Shown here: piece after piece, positions 29,676-37,565 of the stretch
Position numbering within the stretch: position 1 is the stretch's first letter
How the letters are laid out: every line of letters starts with the position of its first letter
NCBI GenBank assembly: GCA_021794835.1
Contig: JAJYQA010000005.1
Location: 29,296-66,860 of the forward strand
Reading direction: 5' to 3'
DNA: 37,565 nt
Origin: Actinomycetes bacterium
Lineage (GTDB): Bacteria; Actinomycetota; Aquicultoria; Aquicultorales; Aquicultoraceae
Notes under the pieces: model-generated
Told to the model about the DNA's origin: nothing
The model's database searches: none
What the model saw: only the letters and a program-made list of their open reading frames with translations
Translations under genes and position numbers: made by a program

Positions 29676-31511
29676 CTACTGCCTACCTATGTAGATTGTT
29701 ATATTTGCATTGCTCTTTTTTTCTTGCGTACCGGCGTTGGGGTTTTGAGTTACAACCATACCAACATCTTGTGACGTTGGGGCTGGGATGTCGTTAGAAA
29801 CTACGGTAAAGCCCGCACTTTGTAGGATGTTTGTGGCATCGGCTTCGGACTTACCGATAACATTGGGAACACTTATCATCTCCGGTCCTTCGCTTATGAC
29901 CACGGTAACGTTTGAGCCCTTCCTGGCCTCGCTCCCGCTTGCCGGAGATGTCCTTATTACGTTACCTTTGGAGACGGTATCACTATATTCCTCAGAGGTA
30001 GTAACCTTAAATCCTGCCTGCTGAAGGGCATTTTGAGCATCGGTAGAGCTATCTCCGTAGACGTCCGGAATTTGCTCTATCGCCGGCCCTTTGCTTACGA
30101 TAAGAACGACCTGGGTACCTTCCACAACCTTTTGCCCGGCAGCTGGGTCGGTACGGATCACCAGCCCCTCCGAGACGACATCACTGTTTTCGTATTTTGT
30201 GTCGCCAACGTTAAGGCCCGCCTTGATCAGCCTAGATGTTGCCCGAGATTCTCCTTCTCCACCTACATCGGGGATAATTTTCATATTCTTGCCCTTGCTT
30301 AAGGTAACGTAGATGATACTTCCTGCATCTTTTTTATCGCCGGGGTTTGGGTCTTGGCTTATAACCAAGCCTGGCTTTACTATATTGCTATATTGACGCT
30401 CCCTCTCTTTAATTTTAAAACCGGCCGCTTTCAAGGTCTTCTTGGCCTTAGCAAAAGTATCGCCCTGTATATTAGGGACTTCAACGACCTTCTTACCGTT
30501 AATGATGTGTGCAAAGGCAAGCCAGCCGCCTAATGCAAAAATTAGAATAATCGCTACGGCAAGTAGAGACCCGCGACCTCGCCGCTTAGGCTTTTGCTTA
30601 GATTTTTCCGCAAGGGAAGGTTGCTCAATACGGGCGGTCCGGTCGGGCGCCATCAACATTGTTTCTTGCTCCTCGGGAGCGGTTGCGGTAATTGGCATAC
30701 CCTCCATCAGCCGCATGATATCGTTGCGCATCTCAGATGCGTTTTGGTACCTGCTTTCCGGGTTTTTAGCCATTGCTTTTTGTATGATAACCTGCAATGC
30801 CTCCGGAATGCTGGGGTTTAGCTCGCGGGGCGGAGTTGGATACTCGTGGACATGCTTTAAGGCAATGGCGACCGGGTTGTCTCCCACAAAAGGAATCTTG
30901 CCGGTGACCATTTCGTAGAGCACTATCCCTGTTGAGTAGATATCCGAGGTGATGCCAACATCTTGGCCACGGGCCTGCTCGGGGGAGAGGTAATGCGCCG
31001 TGCCCAGGATTGTGCCGGTCTGCGTCATAGTTGAAGTGCCGGCACGCGCTATCCCAAAATCAGTGACTTTTACTTCACCCTCGCGGGTCAAGATTATGTT
31101 GTGCGGTTTGATGTCGCGGTGTACTATCTGGTGCTTGTGTGCAAAGCTTAGTGCCGAAAGCACCTTCTTGGCTATTTCCATTGCCTCTCTGGGGGGAATT
31201 GTCCCGTTCAGGCTAATGTATTTTTTCAAGCTTTGACCCTCAAGGAGCTCCATGACGATAAAATAGGTGCCGTTCTCGCTTCCCCAGTCGTAGATGTTTA
31301 CGATGTTGGGGTGGTTCAGGCTGGCCGCAGCCTGGGCCTCGCGCCTGAAACGGGATACAAAATCCTCGTCCTCGGCGAAGTATTTATGAAGGACTTTTAC
31401 CGCCACAGGTCGGTCCAAGACAGTATCGATGGCCTTATAGACATCGGCCATACCACCGGATCCGATCTTAGCGATAATTTTATACCTGTCGTTGAAGACC
31501 TGTTGCTCCAT
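29676..31511 (-). CDS. pknB: Ser/Thr protein kinase PknB with four PASTA domains
   Basis: This membrane kinase senses peptidoglycan fragments or lipid II and phosphorylates division and wall-synthesis proteins. Kinase residues are IGSGGMADVYKA (P-loop, about 16-27), Lys39, HRDIKPHN (Asp133), DFG at 151-153, an activation loop with several Thr (TSTMTQTGTILGTAHYLSPEQ region) and TSDIYSTG. A cytoplasmic linker leads to one transmembrane helix at about 316-339. Four PASTA repeats fill residues about 342-611. In mycobacteria the orthologue is the last gene of the fhaA-pknB cluster, as here. A 192-base gap separates it from the PBP gene, so it may have its own promoter. Confidence 0.95.
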   Translation of the reverse strand: MEQQVFNDRYKIIAKIGSGGMADVYKAIDTVLDRPVAVKVLHKYFAEDEDFVSRFRREAQAAASLNHPNIVNIYDWGSENGTYFIVMELLEGQSLKKYISLNGTIPPREAMEIAKKVLSALSFAHKHQIVHRDIKPHNIILTREGEVKVTDFGIARAGTSTMTQTGTILGTAHYLSPEQARGQDVGITSDIYSTGIVLYEMVTGKIPFVGDNPVAIALKHVHEYPTPPRELNPSIPEALQVIIQKAMAKNPESRYQNASEMRNDIMRLMEGMPITATAPEEQETMLMAPDRTARIEQPSLAEKSKQKPKRRGRGSLLAVAIILIFALGGWLAFAHIINGKKVVEVPNIQGDTFAKAKKTLKAAGFKIKERERQYSNIVKPGLVISQDPNPGDKKDAGSIIYVTLSKGKNMKIIPDVGGEGESRATSRLIKAGLNVGDTKYENSDVVSEGLVIRTDPAAGQKVVEGTQVVLIVSKGPAIEQIPDVYGDSSTDAQNALQQAGFKVTTSEEYSDTVSKGNVIRTSPASGSEARKGSNVTVVISEGPEMISVPNVIGKSEADATNILQSAGFTVVSNDIPAPTSQDVGMVVTQNPNAGTQEKKSNANITIYIGRQ

Positions 31512-31703: not shown

Positions 31704-33107
31704 TTAATTCTTTGGCTTTTTAAGTGCTTCCTGCATGATTTCTCTGGCAATTGGGGCGGCGGTACGCCCCCCGATGCCGCCGTTTTCAATAATTACCGCA
31801 ACTAAAACTTGCGGGTTCTCGGCTGGGGCAAATCCCACAAACCAGGCGTGCGGATTGTCTTTGCCGACTTCGGCGGTCCCCGTCTTGCCGGCCACCTGCA
31901 CGCCAGGTATTTTTGCCGCTTTTCCTGTACCTTCGTTTACCACCCTTTCCATGAGGGACTTTACGATTTGCGAGGTCCCATGTTTCATCGGGGAAAGCCA
32001 CACCTTGGGACTTGCCTCATAGACGGTATTGCCGCCCGCGTCCTGGATTTTTTTGACCAGATAAGGTTGCATAATCTTGCCGTCGTTTGCGACAGCCGCG
32101 CCGATCAGAGCCATGGTAAGCGGCGTTGCCTGGACCCTGCCTTGCCCAACCGAGCTCCAGGCGACCTCGAGGGGGTCCATCTCGGAGGCCTGTGGGATGC
32201 GGCTTTCCGATGCCGGCAGGTCAAACGGGGGTTTTTCGCCAAAACCAAAGGCTCTGGCAGCATCAACAAGCTTCGGCCCACCTAGGCTCTTGCTAACCTG
32301 GGCAAATACCGTGTTTACTGATTTTGCAAAGGCGTCGGCAAAGGTAATCCTACTGTAGTTTTCACCCGCGAAGTTGGTGACCTTACCGCCGTATATTTTA
32401 ATGGTACCCGGCGCGTCAAAAACGGTACCGGTGGTAGCAGATGCGTTTTCCAAGGCTGCGGCTGCGGTTACCATTTTAAAAGTAGAACCTGGTGTAAAAC
32501 GGCTCTGAGTTGCCCGATTTAGCATTGGCCCATTCGGGTCGTTGATGAGTGTGTTCCAATTCTGGTCCACGTTGTTTGGGTTGTAGCTAGGGTGGCTTGC
32601 CAGGGCAAGCACTGCACCCGTTTTTGGATTAAGAACAACTATTGCGCCCTTTCTTGACCCGAGCAGGCGGTCTGCCGTCTTCTGAATATCCATATTAACA
32701 GTGAGGGATAGGTTATCCCCCGGGACGTCTTTCCCTAAGAGTCGCTTTATATAATCTTCGGGCGATGATACCTTAGTTTGACCCGAGAGGTACTCATCAA
32801 AGGTAAGCTCAAGGCCGGCCCGGCCATATTCTGTCGAGTAGTATCCAGTAATTGGGGAGGCAAGTTCACCCTCTGGATAATATCTTTTATACGTGTCTCC
32901 AACTTTGCGGCTGGTCGCAAGGACCTGTCCATCAGCGGATATGATGTCTCCGCGCCTAATCTTCTGCTTGTTTAAAGTTGGTCGGATGTTCTCTGGCTTT
33001 GCAGTTAGCTCGCTTGCCGCAATGAACTGCAGGTAAGTTAAGTTAACGATAATCACAATAAAGGCCGCTGTAATAATTATGCCAAGTCGCCCAATTCGCT
33101 TATTCAA
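31704..33107 (-). CDS. pbpA: Penicillin-binding protein, class B (PbpA)
   Basis: This is a class B transpeptidase that cross-links peptidoglycan with the RodA glycosyltransferase. The protein has 467 residues from the TTG at 33107, chosen because AAGGAGG lies 9 bases upstream and because the frame then begins NKRIGRLGIIIT before the single transmembrane helix (8-30). Catalytic motifs: Ser208-x-x-Lys211 in TPGSTFK, Ser262-Val-Asn264 (KSVN), and KTGT at 408-411. The longer frame to ATG 33149 lies wholly within rodA. The start overlaps the rodA stop by 8 bases, so they are coupled. The length and lack of PASTA domains match mycobacterial PbpA. Confidence 0.95.
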   Translation of the reverse strand: MNKRIGRLGIIITAAFIVIIVNLTYLQFIAASELTAKPENIRPTLNKQKIRRGDIISADGQVLATSRKVGDTYKRYYPEGELASPITGYYSTEYGRAGLELTFDEYLSGQTKVSSPEDYIKRLLGKDVPGDNLSLTVNMDIQKTADRLLGSRKGAIVVLNPKTGAVLALASHPSYNPNNVDQNWNTLINDPNGPMLNRATQSRFTPGSTFKMVTAAAALENASATTGTVFDAPGTIKIYGGKVTNFAGENYSRITFADAFAKSVNTVFAQVSKSLGGPKLVDAARAFGFGEKPPFDLPASESRIPQASEMDPLEVAWSSVGQGRVQATPLTMALIGAAVANDGKIMQPYLVKKIQDAGGNTVYEASPKVWLSPMKHGTSQIVKSLMERVVNEGTGKAAKIPGVQVAGKTGTAEVGKDNPHAWFVGFAPAENPQVLVAVIIENGGIGGRTAAPIAREIMQEALKKPKN

Positions 33108-34362
33108 CTTGGGTCGCCTCCTTTGCGGATATAACAAGAAGCAAGGCAAGCAGGATGAAGTTCATAAGAATCGAGCTTCCGCCGTAGCTCATGTAGGGAA
33201 GGGTTACTCCGGTTAGCGGTATAAGTTTCGTTGTGCCGCCAATAATGGTAAAGCTTTGCAGAGCAAAGACGCTTGCCAGGCCCACCGCAACCAGGCGGCC
33301 GAAATCGTTTTTTGCAAGTAGCGCGATTTTTAGCCCACGCAGGGTAAAGAGCAAGAAGGAGAGAACAACTGCAACACCACCAAGAAGCCCCAGCTCTTCA
33401 GCAATGCTTGAGAAGATAAAGTCGGTCTGCACCGCCGGAATTAGCGTAGGGTGGCCAAGTCCCAATCCGGATCCGGTAAGCCCTCCGCTTGCAATTGCAA
33501 AAATTGACTGGACTATTTGATATCCCCTGCCCGATGGGTCGATCCAGGGATCAAGCCAAATATCGACCCGCGCCTGCACGTAGCTAAAGGCAAAGTAGCT
33601 CGCGGTTACCCCAGCAATAAATAAGATAAATCCGAGCGAGACGTACACCGGCCGACCGGTTGCAACGTAGAGCATCACCAGGAATAGTCCAAGGAAAAGG
33701 AGCGATGTACCAAGGTCTCGCTCTAGAATCAGTGTCACGAGCGAGATAAGCCACATCGCAATTAAGGGACCCAGGTGTTTTAGCTCGGGCAACCAGAATC
33801 CGAAGACACGCTTGGTTGAAATTGAGAGAAGCTCACGCTTCTCGCCAAGGTAGGCAGCTAGGAAAAAGACAAAGAAAATCTTGGCTATTTCGGCTGGCTG
33901 AAACGAGACCGGTCCGAAACTAATCCAGAGTTTAGCGCCGCCCCTCTCCACCCCGATAAAGGCTGGGGCGAAAAGAAGGATAATTCCGACGATTGCCCAG
34001 GTATATTTGTAATCTTTTAGCCACTGGTAGCGTCTCAGGGTGGAAAACACGACAAGTATGGCAATTGTTCCCGCTGAGATCCAAATTGCCTGCGCAATTG
34101 CAAGGTCCGGTTTGAGCCGCCAAATCATAACCAATCCCAGCCCAGATAAAAAAGCCGAGAGTGGAAGAAGCGTTGGATCGGCTTCACGGACAAAGTAGCG
34201 GTTTGCGGCATGAAGAACAATAAACATGGATGAGAGAAGGCCGGCAATCCTAAGCGCGCCCGCGATTGGCTGCGCGGTTGTCTGCGAAACTAAAAAGAAA
34301 CCTACAAATATGGGTACCAGCGCAAAAAATAAAAGAAGTAATTCGATGTTTCGGCGGCTCAG
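33100..34362 (-). CDS. rodA: RodA/FtsW-family peptidoglycan glycosyltransferase; start unusual
   Basis: This SEDS polymerase extends glycan strands with its PBP partner. It has about eleven transmembrane segments and the typical IVQSIFAIASGGLTGSGLG and PYMSYGGSS motifs. The first ATG in frame (34227) gives 375 residues but cuts off the family's first helices. Upstream in the same frame lies SRRNIELLLLFFALVPIFVG, clearly homologous to the N-terminus of actinobacterial RodA. No standard start codon precedes it; CTG at 34360-34362 is the nearest near-cognate. ATG 34373-34375 would give MVIRLSRRNIEL if one A were removed from ATTAAGG. So either a CTG start or a one-base change is involved. pstP ends 6 bases upstream. 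Confidence 0.85.
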   Translation of the reverse strand: MSRRNIELLLLFFALVPIFVGFFLVSQTTAQPIAGALRIAGLLSSMFIVLHAANRYFVREADPTLLPLSAFLSGLGLVMIWRLKPDLAIAQAIWISAGTIAILVVFSTLRRYQWLKDYKYTWAIVGIILLFAPAFIGVERGGAKLWISFGPVSFQPAEIAKIFFVFFLAAYLGEKRELLSISTKRVFGFWLPELKHLGPLIAMWLISLVTLILERDLGTSLLFLGLFLVMLYVATGRPVYVSLGFILFIAGVTASYFAFSYVQARVDIWLDPWIDPSGRGYQIVQSIFAIASGGLTGSGLGLGHPTLIPAVQTDFIFSSIAEELGLLGGVAVVLSFLLFTLRGLKIALLAKNDFGRLVAVGLASVFALQSFTIIGGTTKLIPLTGVTLPYMSYGGSSILMNFILLALLLVISAKEATQVE

Positions 34363-34368
34363 CCTTAA

Positions 34369-35118
34369 TCACCATCCAATTCTAAGCAAGCGGCCAATAT
34401 GAGAGGTTGGGCCACTATCTGGCTCAAACAAAACCACGGTAATGTTGTCTTTACCTCCACGGTCATTTGCCCAACTTATAAGCTCGCGGGCAGCTTCGTC
34501 CAAATCTTCTTTGTCCCGTAGGACCTCGGCGATCTCGTTGTCGGAAAGCATTGCGTTAAGCCCATCAGTGCAAAGTAAAAACCTGTCGCCGGGGAGTATG
34601 TCCTCAATACTTAAATCTACCTCTACATCGATCTCGCTTCCAATTGCCCTTGTAATTATGCTTCTCTGGGGGTGAACTTCCGCTTCTTCTGGTTTTAAGT
34701 GTCCGCTTTGCACCATCTGTGCAACGAGAGAGTGGTCGTTGGTAAGCTGAGAGAGCTTGCCGTCTCGCAACAGATAAAGCCGCGAGTCGCCAACGTGTCC
34801 TATGTATAGTTTATCACCATTTGGCATAGCAACGGTTAAAGTTGTGCCCATGCCGCGCATATCCAAATCTTTCAAGGCTCTCTTGTAGATATCCTGGTTG
34901 GCCTGCTTTACCGCCCTGATTATTCTATGTTCAAGTGTTTCCTTGCTACGTTTGGTTAGGCCCGTTTTTAAAATATCGAGCGCGGTGACGCTTGCGACTT
35001 CACCCGCACGGTGGCCTCCCATACCATCGGCAACGGCAAAGATACTGCCGTCTGCGATATAGCTATCTTCGTTTAGATTTCGTTTTTTACCAACATCGGT
35101 GATTGCGTAATACTTCAT
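34369..35118 (-). CDS. pstP: PP2C-type Ser/Thr phosphatase PstP
   Basis: PstP reverses phosphorylation by PknB. The 249-residue protein is a single PPM domain with the metal motifs DVGKKRNLNEDSY (about 8-20), VADGMGGHRAGE (32-43), GHVGDSRLYLL (106-116) and DRGGKDNITVVLF (near 226-238). Mycobacterial PstP has an extra transmembrane and extracellular part. This one stops after the catalytic domain, so it should be cytosolic. ATG 35118 begins 3 bases after the fhaB stop. The operon order matches the mycobacterial one. Confidence 0.95.
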   Translation of the reverse strand: MKYYAITDVGKKRNLNEDSYIADGSIFAVADGMGGHRAGEVASVTALDILKTGLTKRSKETLEHRIIRAVKQANQDIYKRALKDLDMRGMGTTLTVAMPNGDKLYIGHVGDSRLYLLRDGKLSQLTNDHSLVAQMVQSGHLKPEEAEVHPQRSIITRAIGSEIDVEVDLSIEDILPGDRFLLCTDGLNAMLSDNEIAEVLRDKEDLDEAARELISWANDRGGKDNITVVLFEPDSGPTSHIGRLLRIGW

Positions 35119-35121
35119 TTT

Positions 35122-35535
35122 TTACTCATTAAACTGAAAAGTGCTTGCGCCTATTTTAAATTTACTTCCTCTTGTTAGTCTTACGGAATCTTTAATCTTG
35201 CGGTCACCCATTGTCGTGCCATTTGTGCTTTTTAAATCCTCCAGCCAAAAGCCAGCATCGGTGGCGTAGACCCGGGCATGATGCGCTGAGGCAAACGAGT
35301 CTTCCAAGACTATATCGCAATCGGGCGCCCGGCCAATCAATATCTGGTCTACCAGTGGGTAATCAACTTTCCCATCCGGCCCACCTTTTAATATGGTGAT
35401 CCGCGGGAATCTCTCTTCAGTTGCCCCTTTTGCCAAGGAGAAGTCCCTTGAGACAACCCTAATGGCTAAAAACAAAAAGGCGTATATTGCTATAAGAAGT
35501 GCGATATGGAGTAATAGTGTTAACTCGTTAAACAT
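35122..35535 (-). CDS. fhaB: FHA-domain protein FhaB (FipA-like)
   Basis: This phosphothreonine-binding adaptor has an N-terminal transmembrane helix (NELTLLLHIALLIAIYAFLF) and a C-terminal FHA domain. Its phospho-binding residues are in LIGRAPDCDIVLED, followed by SAHHARV and LKSTNGTTMGD. ATG 35535 is chosen because it has AGGAGAG upstream and overlaps the fhaA stop by 8 bases; the longer frame to 35577 lies in fhaA. In mycobacteria the orthologue links PknA/PknB phosphorylation to the division machinery. About 137 residues, the usual length. Confidence 0.92.
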   Translation of the reverse strand: MFNELTLLLHIALLIAIYAFLFLAIRVVSRDFSLAKGATEERFPRITILKGGPDGKVDYPLVDQILIGRAPDCDIVLEDSFASAHHARVYATDAGFWLEDLKSTNGTTMGDRKIKDSVRLTRGSKFKIGASTFQFNE

Positions 35536-36259
35536 CGCTTTCTCTCCTAAACTGAAGCTTGGTAGTCCCGATGACAATAACGTCCCTATTTTTTAAGACA
35601 TACTCGTCAACCGCTGCCCCGTTTATAAAAGTTCCATTGGTGCTACTTAAGTCCTTGAGCAGGTATCGCGAGCCCTGGTTCTCAATTTGGGCGTGATGTC
35701 GTGACACATTTGGGTCACGAATGACGATGTCGTTATCCGATGCCCGCCCAATTTTAGTGAAGGGTGTGGCAAGCAAGAGTCTTGTCTCTTTACCTGCATC
35801 GAATTTTACAAGATAGGCGCCTTCTTTTGTATCCGGGCCGGCATTTAGCCTTAACATTTTAGTTACGCCTGTCTTTGCGGCTTCGACCTCTCGGCTCTCA
35901 AGGCTGCTCTCAATTACAAGCTCGCCCAGCGAGAGCTTGGATAAGCTTTTGAATTCAATTTGCGGAAGACCCACAAGCTCATATCCCTCTTTTTTCGCAT
36001 GTGAGACAAGAAAGCTCTGAAATTCAGGTATGAGCGTCTTCTCGAAGGGTTTAAGTTTTTCGGCATCCTCTTCGCTGGTGATGATGACATAATGGTTTGG
36101 GACATAGACCTTCGATACGCTGATGGAGCGGTGTGCATCCATCTCGCGCACCAATTTTTTTGCTATCTCAACCGGTTGGACACCTGACTTAAACTGCCTG
36201 GTGAAAAAACCTTCCAGCAGGGATTCTATCCTCAGTTCAAATTCCCTCAGTAAGCTCAA
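35528..36259 (-). CDS. fhaA: FHA-domain protein FhaA (DUF3662-FHA)
   Basis: The 243-residue protein has an N-terminal DUF3662 domain (FELRIESLLEGFFTRQFKSG through about residue 115) and a C-terminal FHA domain. FHA motifs are FTKIGRASDNDIVIRDPNVS, RHHAQIE and LKDLSSTNGTFING. Mycobacterial FhaA binds the phosphorylated pseudokinase domain of MviN and regulates lipid II flipping. The mycobacterial protein has a long disordered linker between domains; here the linker is short, about 40 residues. It lies 17 bases behind the kinase gene. Confidence 0.93.
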   Translation of the reverse strand: MSLLREFELRIESLLEGFFTRQFKSGVQPVEIAKKLVREMDAHRSISVSKVYVPNHYVIITSEEDAEKLKPFEKTLIPEFQSFLVSHAKKEGYELVGLPQIEFKSLSKLSLGELVIESSLESREVEAAKTGVTKMLRLNAGPDTKEGAYLVKFDAGKETRLLLATPFTKIGRASDNDIVIRDPNVSRHHAQIENQGSRYLLKDLSSTNGTFINGAAVDEYVLKNRDVIVIGTTKLQFRRESDV

Positions 36260-36276: not shown

Positions 36277-37565
36277 CTACTCTACGAGCTTATCTATCTT
36301 GGCTTCTGCGTCCACGTTTTTGGCCGGGGGCCGAAAGATAGGTAGCAACAATAATATTATAAGAGAAAAAGACAGAGCCTGCATCAACCCGCCCGAGCCA
36401 AGCTTCTCGCCGTAAAGTTTTACCATTAGGCCCTGGTATCCTGCAAAAAGAATTGTAAACCCAGCAAGTATTGCGGAAAACCATCTTCTTGTCCCGCTTA
36501 CCACAGATGCCACCCCCGCGACAATCGCCCACAGGATTGGTTGGGCAAGCAACAGTTTATCCTCAAGAAACGGCCCACTTACAAGTTGGATAATGTAAAT
36601 AGGGTTGGATTGGCCTTTGATAAGCGACCACAAACCGTAGGATTTGACAAGCTCGGGCAGCGTGCTGCTCCTTAAAAAGATGTTCATTAGCTCAAATACT
36701 ATACAGCCAAGGCCCGACACCATAGCGGCTACTACCGGCTTGGTTAAAAGACCGACCAGCACCGGAAAGATAAATGGCACTTTCAAAAGGCCAAAAGCCG
36801 CTCCGCCTGCCGGGGAAACGGAAAGAAGGGGCCATCTTCGGGCGATCAAAAACCAGTAAGGAATAAGTACGAAAATCATAACAAAAAAGAGTCCCAACGA
36901 GTACTTGGTCGCCAAAAGCGACAGCAGGAAGAAGGCGGCTGCCGTGCCGTATTCTGGCCGCAGAAGAACCGTAATATATACCGCAGATGCTCCCAAGAGG
37001 GAAATGCTTCTCGGCATTCCGTACCAGTAGCGAAGCATCGGAAAGAATGGGGCACCTAGAAACAAGGCGGTTGGGGTTCTGGTTATTGATGCCTTATGTT
37101 CCGTAAAGAACTTCCAGAATCTGCCTTGCCAGCCGGTCTCCTCAATCCAGGTTGGCCCAGCATCGATATCTAAGTATCTATTTATGAGATTTGTGAGCAC
37201 CCGCTCGGCGGTCTTACCGGGGCCGCGGAAGCACTCAAGAGCTTTGCGAAACTCGCCTGCCGATTCATAACGGTATTCCGGGCTCTTGGCAAGGGCAGTA
37301 AGCACACACGTATCTAGGTCTTTGCTAAGGGCCGGGTTTAACTCACTTGGTGGAAAGGGCTCTAAGTTCTGAACGAAGTTCATCGTCTCGGCGACCGACT
37401 CTCCACTAAACGGTATGCAGTCAGTTAAAAGCTCATAAAGTACTGTACCAAGAGAAAAGATATCGCTTCTCTCATCGACCGTATCACCGCGCGCCTGCTC
37501 GGGAGACATATAAGCAAAAGTGCCGGTTATATCATTGCTTGCCGTGCTGCCTACTCCTTTAAGTC
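36277..37565 (-). CDS. Ser/Thr kinase fused to a polytopic membrane domain; N-terminus outside window
   Basis: The frame is open to the window edge, so the N-lobe, catalytic loop and DFG motif are not visible. What is seen begins in the activation segment (LKGVGSTASNDITGTFAYMS), then SPEQARG and DERSDIFSLGTVLYELLT, and the rest of the C-lobe to about 130 residues from the edge. A linker follows, then a region of some 280 residues with about nine hydrophobic segments and no PASTA domain. It stands at the head of the fhaA-rodA-pbpA-pknB series. The transmembrane part is not recognised as a known transporter. The visible activation-segment and APE-region motifs are intact, suggesting an active kinase, but this needs the missing part. 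Confidence 0.85.
   Translation of the reverse strand, partial: LKGVGSTASNDITGTFAYMSPEQARGDTVDERSDIFSLGTVLYELLTDCIPFSGESVAETMNFVQNLEPFPPSELNPALSKDLDTCVLTALAKSPEYRYESAGEFRKALECFRGPGKTAERVLTNLINRYLDIDAGPTWIEETGWQGRFWKFFTEHKASITRTPTALFLGAPFFPMLRYWYGMPRSISLLGASAVYITVLLRPEYGTAAAFFLLSLLATKYSLGLFFVMIFVLIPYWFLIARRWPLLSVSPAGGAAFGLLKVPFIFPVLVGLLTKPVVAAMVSGLGCIVFELMNIFLRSSTLPELVKSYGLWSLIKGQSNPIYIIQLVSGPFLEDKLLLAQPILWAIVAGVASVVSGTRRWFSAILAGFTILFAGYQGLMVKLYGEKLGSGGLMQALSFSLIILLLLPIFRPPAKNVDAEAKIDKLVE

Follow-up and report, generated by a model that had tools for sequence, protein, structure and literature searches.

The gene that heads a cell-wall cluster in the window, a stretch of 37,565 nucleotides of Aquicultoraceae DNA, would in our reading encode a receptor Ser/Thr kinase with a new membrane input domain, acting as the second kinase of clusters that have no PknA and feeding a second input to peptidoglycan synthesis; we hold this reading with moderate confidence. 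The head kinase apparently represents a real, widespread and unnamed lineage of receptor kinases, and its membrane domain probably makes it a membrane receptor of a new kind. The support is sequence-based and consists of intact catalytic motifs, a constant gene order, a grouping apart from PknA and PknB, a complementarity with PknA within our sample and a modular use of the membrane domain; from there we infer the sensing, the kind of signal, the substrates and the topology.

The window ends where its contig ends (contig C20, 66860 bases), and the kinase frame (36277..37563, minus strand) is open up to that point and stop-free upstream. This 3' part of the gene codes for 428 amino acids. Pfam Pkinase matches fragment residues 9-95 at model positions 154-248 of 263, which is the kinase C-lobe (37279..37539, minus strand), and a hydrophobic tail of ~290 residues follows, which contains the polytopic membrane domain (36331..37074, minus strand). 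An earlier sequence-only reading had described just such a C-lobe with a polytopic tail, and this description stands. The N-terminal part was sought and obtained from C40, another contig of this genome (locus L038, 8350-10017, plus strand), which terminates inside the same kinase gene and overlaps the window in a dovetail of 1209 bases, 1183 of them identical (98%). Read from C40, the first 556 kinase residues include the glycine loop GRGGF, VAIK, HRDIKPEN, DFG and SPE, so that all five hallmarks of a Hanks-type Ser/Thr kinase (ATP lysine, catalytic loop, DFG, glycine loop and S/APE) are present, with a Pfam Pkinase match of E 6.1e-53. A pseudokinase, which would have overturned the earlier reading, was rejected, since the catalytic motifs are found both in the C40 read and in relatives. 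A gene duplication in the window's genome was also rejected, as the second copy amounts to the overlapping contig ends, which are 98% identical. The overlap is best taken to reflect two strains whose versions of a single locus the assembler split, because a single tail match was found in each of ten further genomes from the GTDB family of the window. The assembly break itself lies within the kinase gene, at window position 37565 and at the end of L038, and the 1.2 kb overlap with 98% identity is read as a strain mixture. In the window's genome a STAS-domain gene (L038:7840-8202) precedes the kinase; it was rejected as a kinase partner, since among the loci compared it recurs only in the nearest relative, L131.

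The Fha/PstP/RodA/PknB module is a control center of cell-wall growth that has been studied in mycobacteria, and the signal sensed by PknA is, to our knowledge, unclear. In the window the genes follow each other on one strand in the order tail-kinase, fhaA, fhaB, pstP, rodA, pbp and pknB. The first possible start of FhaA (FhaA_N and FHA domains; 35528..36259, minus strand) is found 17 bases past the kinase stop and is followed, all on the minus strand, by FhaB (FHA; 35122..35577), PstP (PP2C; 34369..35118), RodA (FTSW_RODA_SPOVE; 33100..34227), a transpeptidase of the penicillin-binding protein A type (PBP; 31704..33149) and a PASTA kinase of the PknB type (29676..31511). No kinase was found in the window between pbp and pknB, which is the position of PknA. 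According to the accessible parts of two papers, the mycobacterial cluster contains both pknA and pknB (PMC6554272, PMC11898655), and FhaA and FhaB recognize phosphothreonine (PMC11898655).

Tail profiles were searched against one phylum, Actinomycetota, and against viral contigs. The phylum is taken as Actinomycetota because one of its genomes, G152, has a PknB kinase domain nearly identical to the one in a named Streptomyces. The first profile (A1, from 22 tails) had matches in 42 of the 296 genomes searched, and a second one (A5, from 43 tails) matched 119 of 396 (30%), including 32 of the 36 genomes in the window's class. Kinases with polytopic tails had been thought to be rare, and at least for this phylum that view has to be given up. 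In 202 stretches of viral contigs no relative was found. A scan of contigs from named organisms gave mostly ordinary kinases among the matches listed and at least one carrier, a Thermoleophilia MAG (L051). For the analysis of gene order 104 loci were collected: 43 of the 45 A1 match places (the two in the window's own genome were excluded), 40 FhaA_N places picked for family spread from a search that matched 259 of 296 genomes, 20 A5 places picked for paralogs and weak families, and L051. The 87 loci that contain fhaA form a cluster sample that is partly selected for the tail, and the counts given here are loci and not independent events.

Within this sample tail-kinases head 54 of the 87 fhaA clusters, and the head position that had been claimed for the window's gene is thus a recurrent one. 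The stop of the kinase lies -73 to +60 nt from the fhaA frame in 40 of 45 kinases labelled as head; the exceptions are L143, at 4.2 kb from fhaA, and L185, L187, L203 and L204, in which the script called a long or displaced fhaA frame. Two kinases stand ahead of fhaA in L244. The linkage between kinase and fhaA is not obligatory, because in family f31 tail-kinases occur without fhaA within the 14-18 kb that were fetched (nine loci: L164, L169, L171 and L230-L235). Among the 54 clusters, 43 contain a PBP followed by exactly one kinase; in the other 11 no kinase was counted after a PBP, because the locus or contig stopped short, the PBP had no label or the cluster was broken up (L162). The other 33 fhaA clusters divide into 17 with one kinase after the PBP, 10 with a second kinase in PknA's place, 2 with none there, 2 with too little upstream DNA, and 2 with a head kinase that has no same-frame profile match (L187 and L195). 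In L187 (9504-12094, genome G107) kinase and tail are in separate frames, which points to a frameshift or a sequencing error. The head kinase of L195 (3195-4928, family f40) has a hydrophobic tail that the profile missed, and the rodA/pstP order differs there; unlike in L195, the tail in another f40 genome (L241) was matched by the profile.

A second kinase in PknA's place was seen in none of the 43 clusters with a head tail-kinase, whereas 10 of the 27 comparable clusters that lack a head kinase have one. Because the remaining 17 of these 27 have no PknA either, a second kinase in the cluster is dispensable. The head tail-kinase looks like the second kinase of clusters without PknA rather than an extra kinase beside PknA. 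The earlier proposal of a second input sensor can therefore be kept in part: the fusions of the tail to cyclases, GGDEF and AAA+ domains speak for an input domain, but an addition to PknA is what the kinase looks less like (0/43).

The tail is a module that is shared with other signaling proteins. A kinase-only tail profile (the 43-row alignment, from which the AAA+ row was taken out after aligning) was run against the 11,819 frames of the loci and found 68 kinase frames and six others. These six comprise the L187 frame, which holds the tail but not the kinase, one frame of 184 residues with a weak score (19.3 bits), and four fusions. In L225 (6132-8501) and L226 (6535-8166) the membrane domain is N-terminal to a Pfam Guanylate_cyc domain, in L227 (5669-7801), from a genome of the window's class, it is joined N-terminally to GGDEF, and in L166 (7444-10119) it is N-terminal to two AAA+ domains. 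The genomes with the GGDEF and AAA+ fusions also encode head kinases (L228 and L162, respectively). The four fusions score 47-69 bits with the kinase-only profile and 34.6-42.5 bits with A1, whose alignment contains none of the four. Among 1720 tails shuffled locally the top score was 24.9 bits. When the kinase tails (A1) were aligned by hhalign to the cyclase and GGDEF tails (A6), a probability of 98.3 and an E of 1.9e-14 over 224 columns were obtained. The A6 profile matched 43 of 149 genomes in the class of genome G155, and all 19 fetched A6 loci (L252-L270) show the domain followed by a stretch that resembles the L226 cyclase domain (116-317 bits). The kinase-only profile matched all 19 cyclase fusions at 22-67 bits; three of these scores (22, 24 and 25 bits) do not stand out from what a shuffled tail can reach, and the assignment there depends on A6, the profile from the cyclase side, which gives 94-148 bits.

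The sharing of a domain among several signaling outputs is a hallmark of an input domain, as in the reasoning on MASE-type domains. Since kinase, cyclase, GGDEF and AAA+ outputs all use the tail, its distribution suggests a new MASE-like input domain. The earlier view that the membrane domain is not recognizable as a known sensor family was supported by the HMM search, in which Pfam gave no consistent family and no MASE model for the tails. As known membrane families, DUF5518 (the best match, E 0.0032, with three members matched in a set of 22 and three in a set of 43) and DUF2628 (window E 0.07-0.11, under its cut-off) were both rejected as weak and inconsistent. Among PDB sequences nothing better than E 0.2 was found for the tail, a single chance match, and for four proteins NCBIfam gave only kinase models among the matches listed. 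A structure prediction of the tail from a two-row alignment reached a pLDDT of 40. In the open PMC literature on cluster kinases, polytopic kinases and membrane sensor domains, no title or start of an abstract describes the head kinase or its tail; an earlier description elsewhere is possible.

One alternative explanation is that the tail is a mere anchor or scaffold, which keeps the kinase beside RodA and the PBP and senses nothing. The 43-row alignment has no ligand-site signature, and the tail drifts fast, with a mean column identity of 26% and only P69, P133 and W211 nearly invariant; both points agree with an anchor. Yet a unit of 290 residues that is kept on four types of output is hardly expected of a bare anchor, and L166, L225, L226 and L227 have neither RodA nor fhaA in the fetched stretch. 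Single-sequence peak counts range from 2 to 8 in the head kinases with a tail match, and for the PknA and PknB rows the same method gives only 0 to 2 spans. We therefore regard a pure anchor as unlikely.

The topology of the tail was analyzed by hydropathy only. The family average shows about six hydrophobic stretches, two of which are long (~49 and ~41 residues, with room for three and two spans), and when the long ones are split by eye at their dips (residues 65, 85 and 143) nine segments result. The nine helices counted by the sequence-only reading are thus a fair by-eye description of the segments, but the number of membrane spans is probably even. Because the domain comes after kinases but before cyclases, both ends of the tail would be cytoplasmic and the spans even in number, provided that the orientation does not change. 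The charges per sequence were compared with this arrangement: loop 4-5 (1.57 K+R vs 0.41 D+E), loop 7-8 (2.82 vs 0.50) and the C-end (2.11 vs 1.32) are positive and the N-side weakly so (4.55 vs 3.50), and the long loop 6-7 is not positive (2.73 vs 2.89). Loop 1-2, which is outside in the proposed topology, is slightly positive (0.80 vs 0.52) and counts against it. The simplest fit would be eight spans and a re-entrant segment at residues 118-140, which contains the PFxFP motif (36742..36810, minus strand) and is read in this way from the positive charge of both flanking loops. The long loop, read as outside, and the following span with a conserved LLLQ..LWA motif are at 36496..36672 (minus strand).

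Long loops and proline-rich re-entrant segments occur in transporters, and another hypothesis is that the tail is a transporter-like or lipid-carrier-like protein, for example for an envelope precursor, that was fused to its regulator. The long loop, the possible re-entrant PFxFP segment and the position of the gene near rodA would suit such a protein. However, a stand-alone copy of it is not seen among the A5 matches listed, where six frames are shorter than 400 aa and all six are at contig ends (a short frame from the A6 search, of 181 aa in genome G434, is outside this tally). A signaling output accompanies the domain wherever the neighborhood was fetched, and a consistent Pfam family or a PDB chain better than E 0.2 is missing from the searches above. 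We find a transporter origin quite improbable.

In 69 tail-kinases the ATP lysine and DFG are each found in 68 and H[R/L]DxKxxN in 65 (HRD in 52), which speaks for the receptor kinase; the lower numbers for S/APE (57) and the glycine-loop pattern (54) speak against it. HLD replaces HRD in the catalytic loop of 13 of the 69, for example in L033, which may make them independent of activation-loop phosphorylation. The head kinases of family f23 (L165, L167, L168, L170 and L185) have a short kinase domain, of which ~200 residues match; in L165 and L170 the Pfam Pkinase match stops near position 194 of 263. The nearest solved kinase structure is PknB (PDB 1mru, E 1.7e-62, 214 bits, as against 174 bits for PknA), yet the window kinase has no Pfam match to PASTA repeats, and the NCBIfam model PknB_PASTA_kin gives 111.7 bits for the fragment and 315.7-339.3 bits for three relatives, below its cut-off of 450.

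In a tree of 152 kinase domains, which skipped 12 kinases of odd cut-out length including five f23 head kinases, 20 PknA rows fall on one branch (support 97) together with L186, a row that bears the label PknB and comes from a contig on which a single kinase is seen. The head kinases lie apart from PknA and PknB and form two neighboring groups with the midpoint root between them. An 86-row tree, in which 10 rows with long branches or doubtful labels were left out, PknB was sampled, near-copies were dropped and three unlinked f31 kinases were counted as head, puts the head kinases on one side of a branch with an SH-aLRT of 95 (PknA 100). With the skipped rows and L184 restored and again 10 rows left out, a 94-row tree gives 94 for the head kinases and 98 for PknA, and its PknB rows are scattered (4 changes). 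Because the trees split the head kinases from both PknA and PknB, we conclude that they would form a third lineage and not a relocated PknA, with support that is good and not decisive (94-95 in quick trees with SH-aLRT values and no bootstrap). None of the three marks of PknA, which are a placement in its clade, a position between pbp and pknB and a single transmembrane helix, was found in the head kinase. That it is PknA, moved to the cluster head and provided with another tail, agrees with the complementary distribution of the two within the same cluster but is very improbable given the separation in the trees and the closer match to PknB.

The receptor kinase is preferred here because the tail is common to several outputs and because, in the accessible parts of two papers, polytopic anchors of class III cyclases are reported as receptors (PMC4821796, PMC12505454). 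In the proposed mechanism a cytoplasmic PknB-like kinase domain would be followed by the membrane input domain, with eight spans, a re-entrant segment and both ends inside. This domain may bind a membrane-borne or envelope-derived signal, and the binding would alter the activity or the pairing of the kinase. The kinase would then phosphorylate proteins whose phosphothreonines may be read by FhaA and FhaB, as their linkage suggests, and peptidoglycan synthesis by RodA and the PBP would thereby gain a second input besides the PASTA kinase. It is likely that the head kinase stands in for PknA in part of the Actinomycetota, with a signal and substrates that we infer.

The complementarity in our sample suggests that the second input of the Fha/PstP/RodA/PknB module was solved in two ways, by a polytopic receptor kinase or by PknA. 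The membrane domain appears to be a widespread unnamed sensor, with profile matches in 119 of 396 genomes of the phylum and, in its cyclase-fused form, in 43 of 149 genomes of one class. The natural cyclase fusions, together with tail swaps, offer a direct handle for finding its signal. A more far-reaching and rather doubtful option is that the domain is an undescribed receptor for an envelope signal dissolved in the membrane, such as a lipid-linked wall precursor, and that the actinobacterial Fha/PstP/RodA module originally had it as its second sensor, putatively later replaced by PknA in Actinomycetes; the domain would also have been wired to cyclase, c-di-GMP and AAA+ outputs.

Several known systems can be compared with the head kinase. 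The PASTA kinases (PknB, StkP and PrkC) resemble it in that PknB is the closest solved kinase domain and is encoded in the same cluster, whereas the head kinase has no PASTA repeats, carries a polytopic extra domain within the membrane and scores below the PASTA-kinase cut-off. MASE-type sensor domains, and also the MHYT and 7TMR types, are found on GGDEF proteins and histidine kinases. Like the tail, MASE-type domains are polytopic, have no known catalytic motif and are shuffled among signaling outputs; the tail differs by having no consistent Pfam match, by its main output, which is a Ser/Thr kinase, and by its place C-terminal to the kinase. The hexahelical anchors of class III adenylate cyclases (Rv1625c and others) are likewise polytopic and stand ahead of a nucleotidyl cyclase, and they are reported as receptors in the accessible parts of the two papers cited above (PMC12505454, PMC4821796), whereas the tail, set apart from them by description and not by sequence comparison, has more than six hydrophobic segments. 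PknA of the Mycobacteriales and of Corynebacterium is, like the head kinase, the second Ser/Thr kinase of the fhaA-fhaB-pstP-rodA-pbpA-pknB cluster and has an intact kinase domain. Its gene lies between pbp and pknB, and the protein crosses the membrane once and forms its own clade, whereas the head kinase precedes fhaA and carries a polytopic tail, and the two never occur together in one cluster of our sample.
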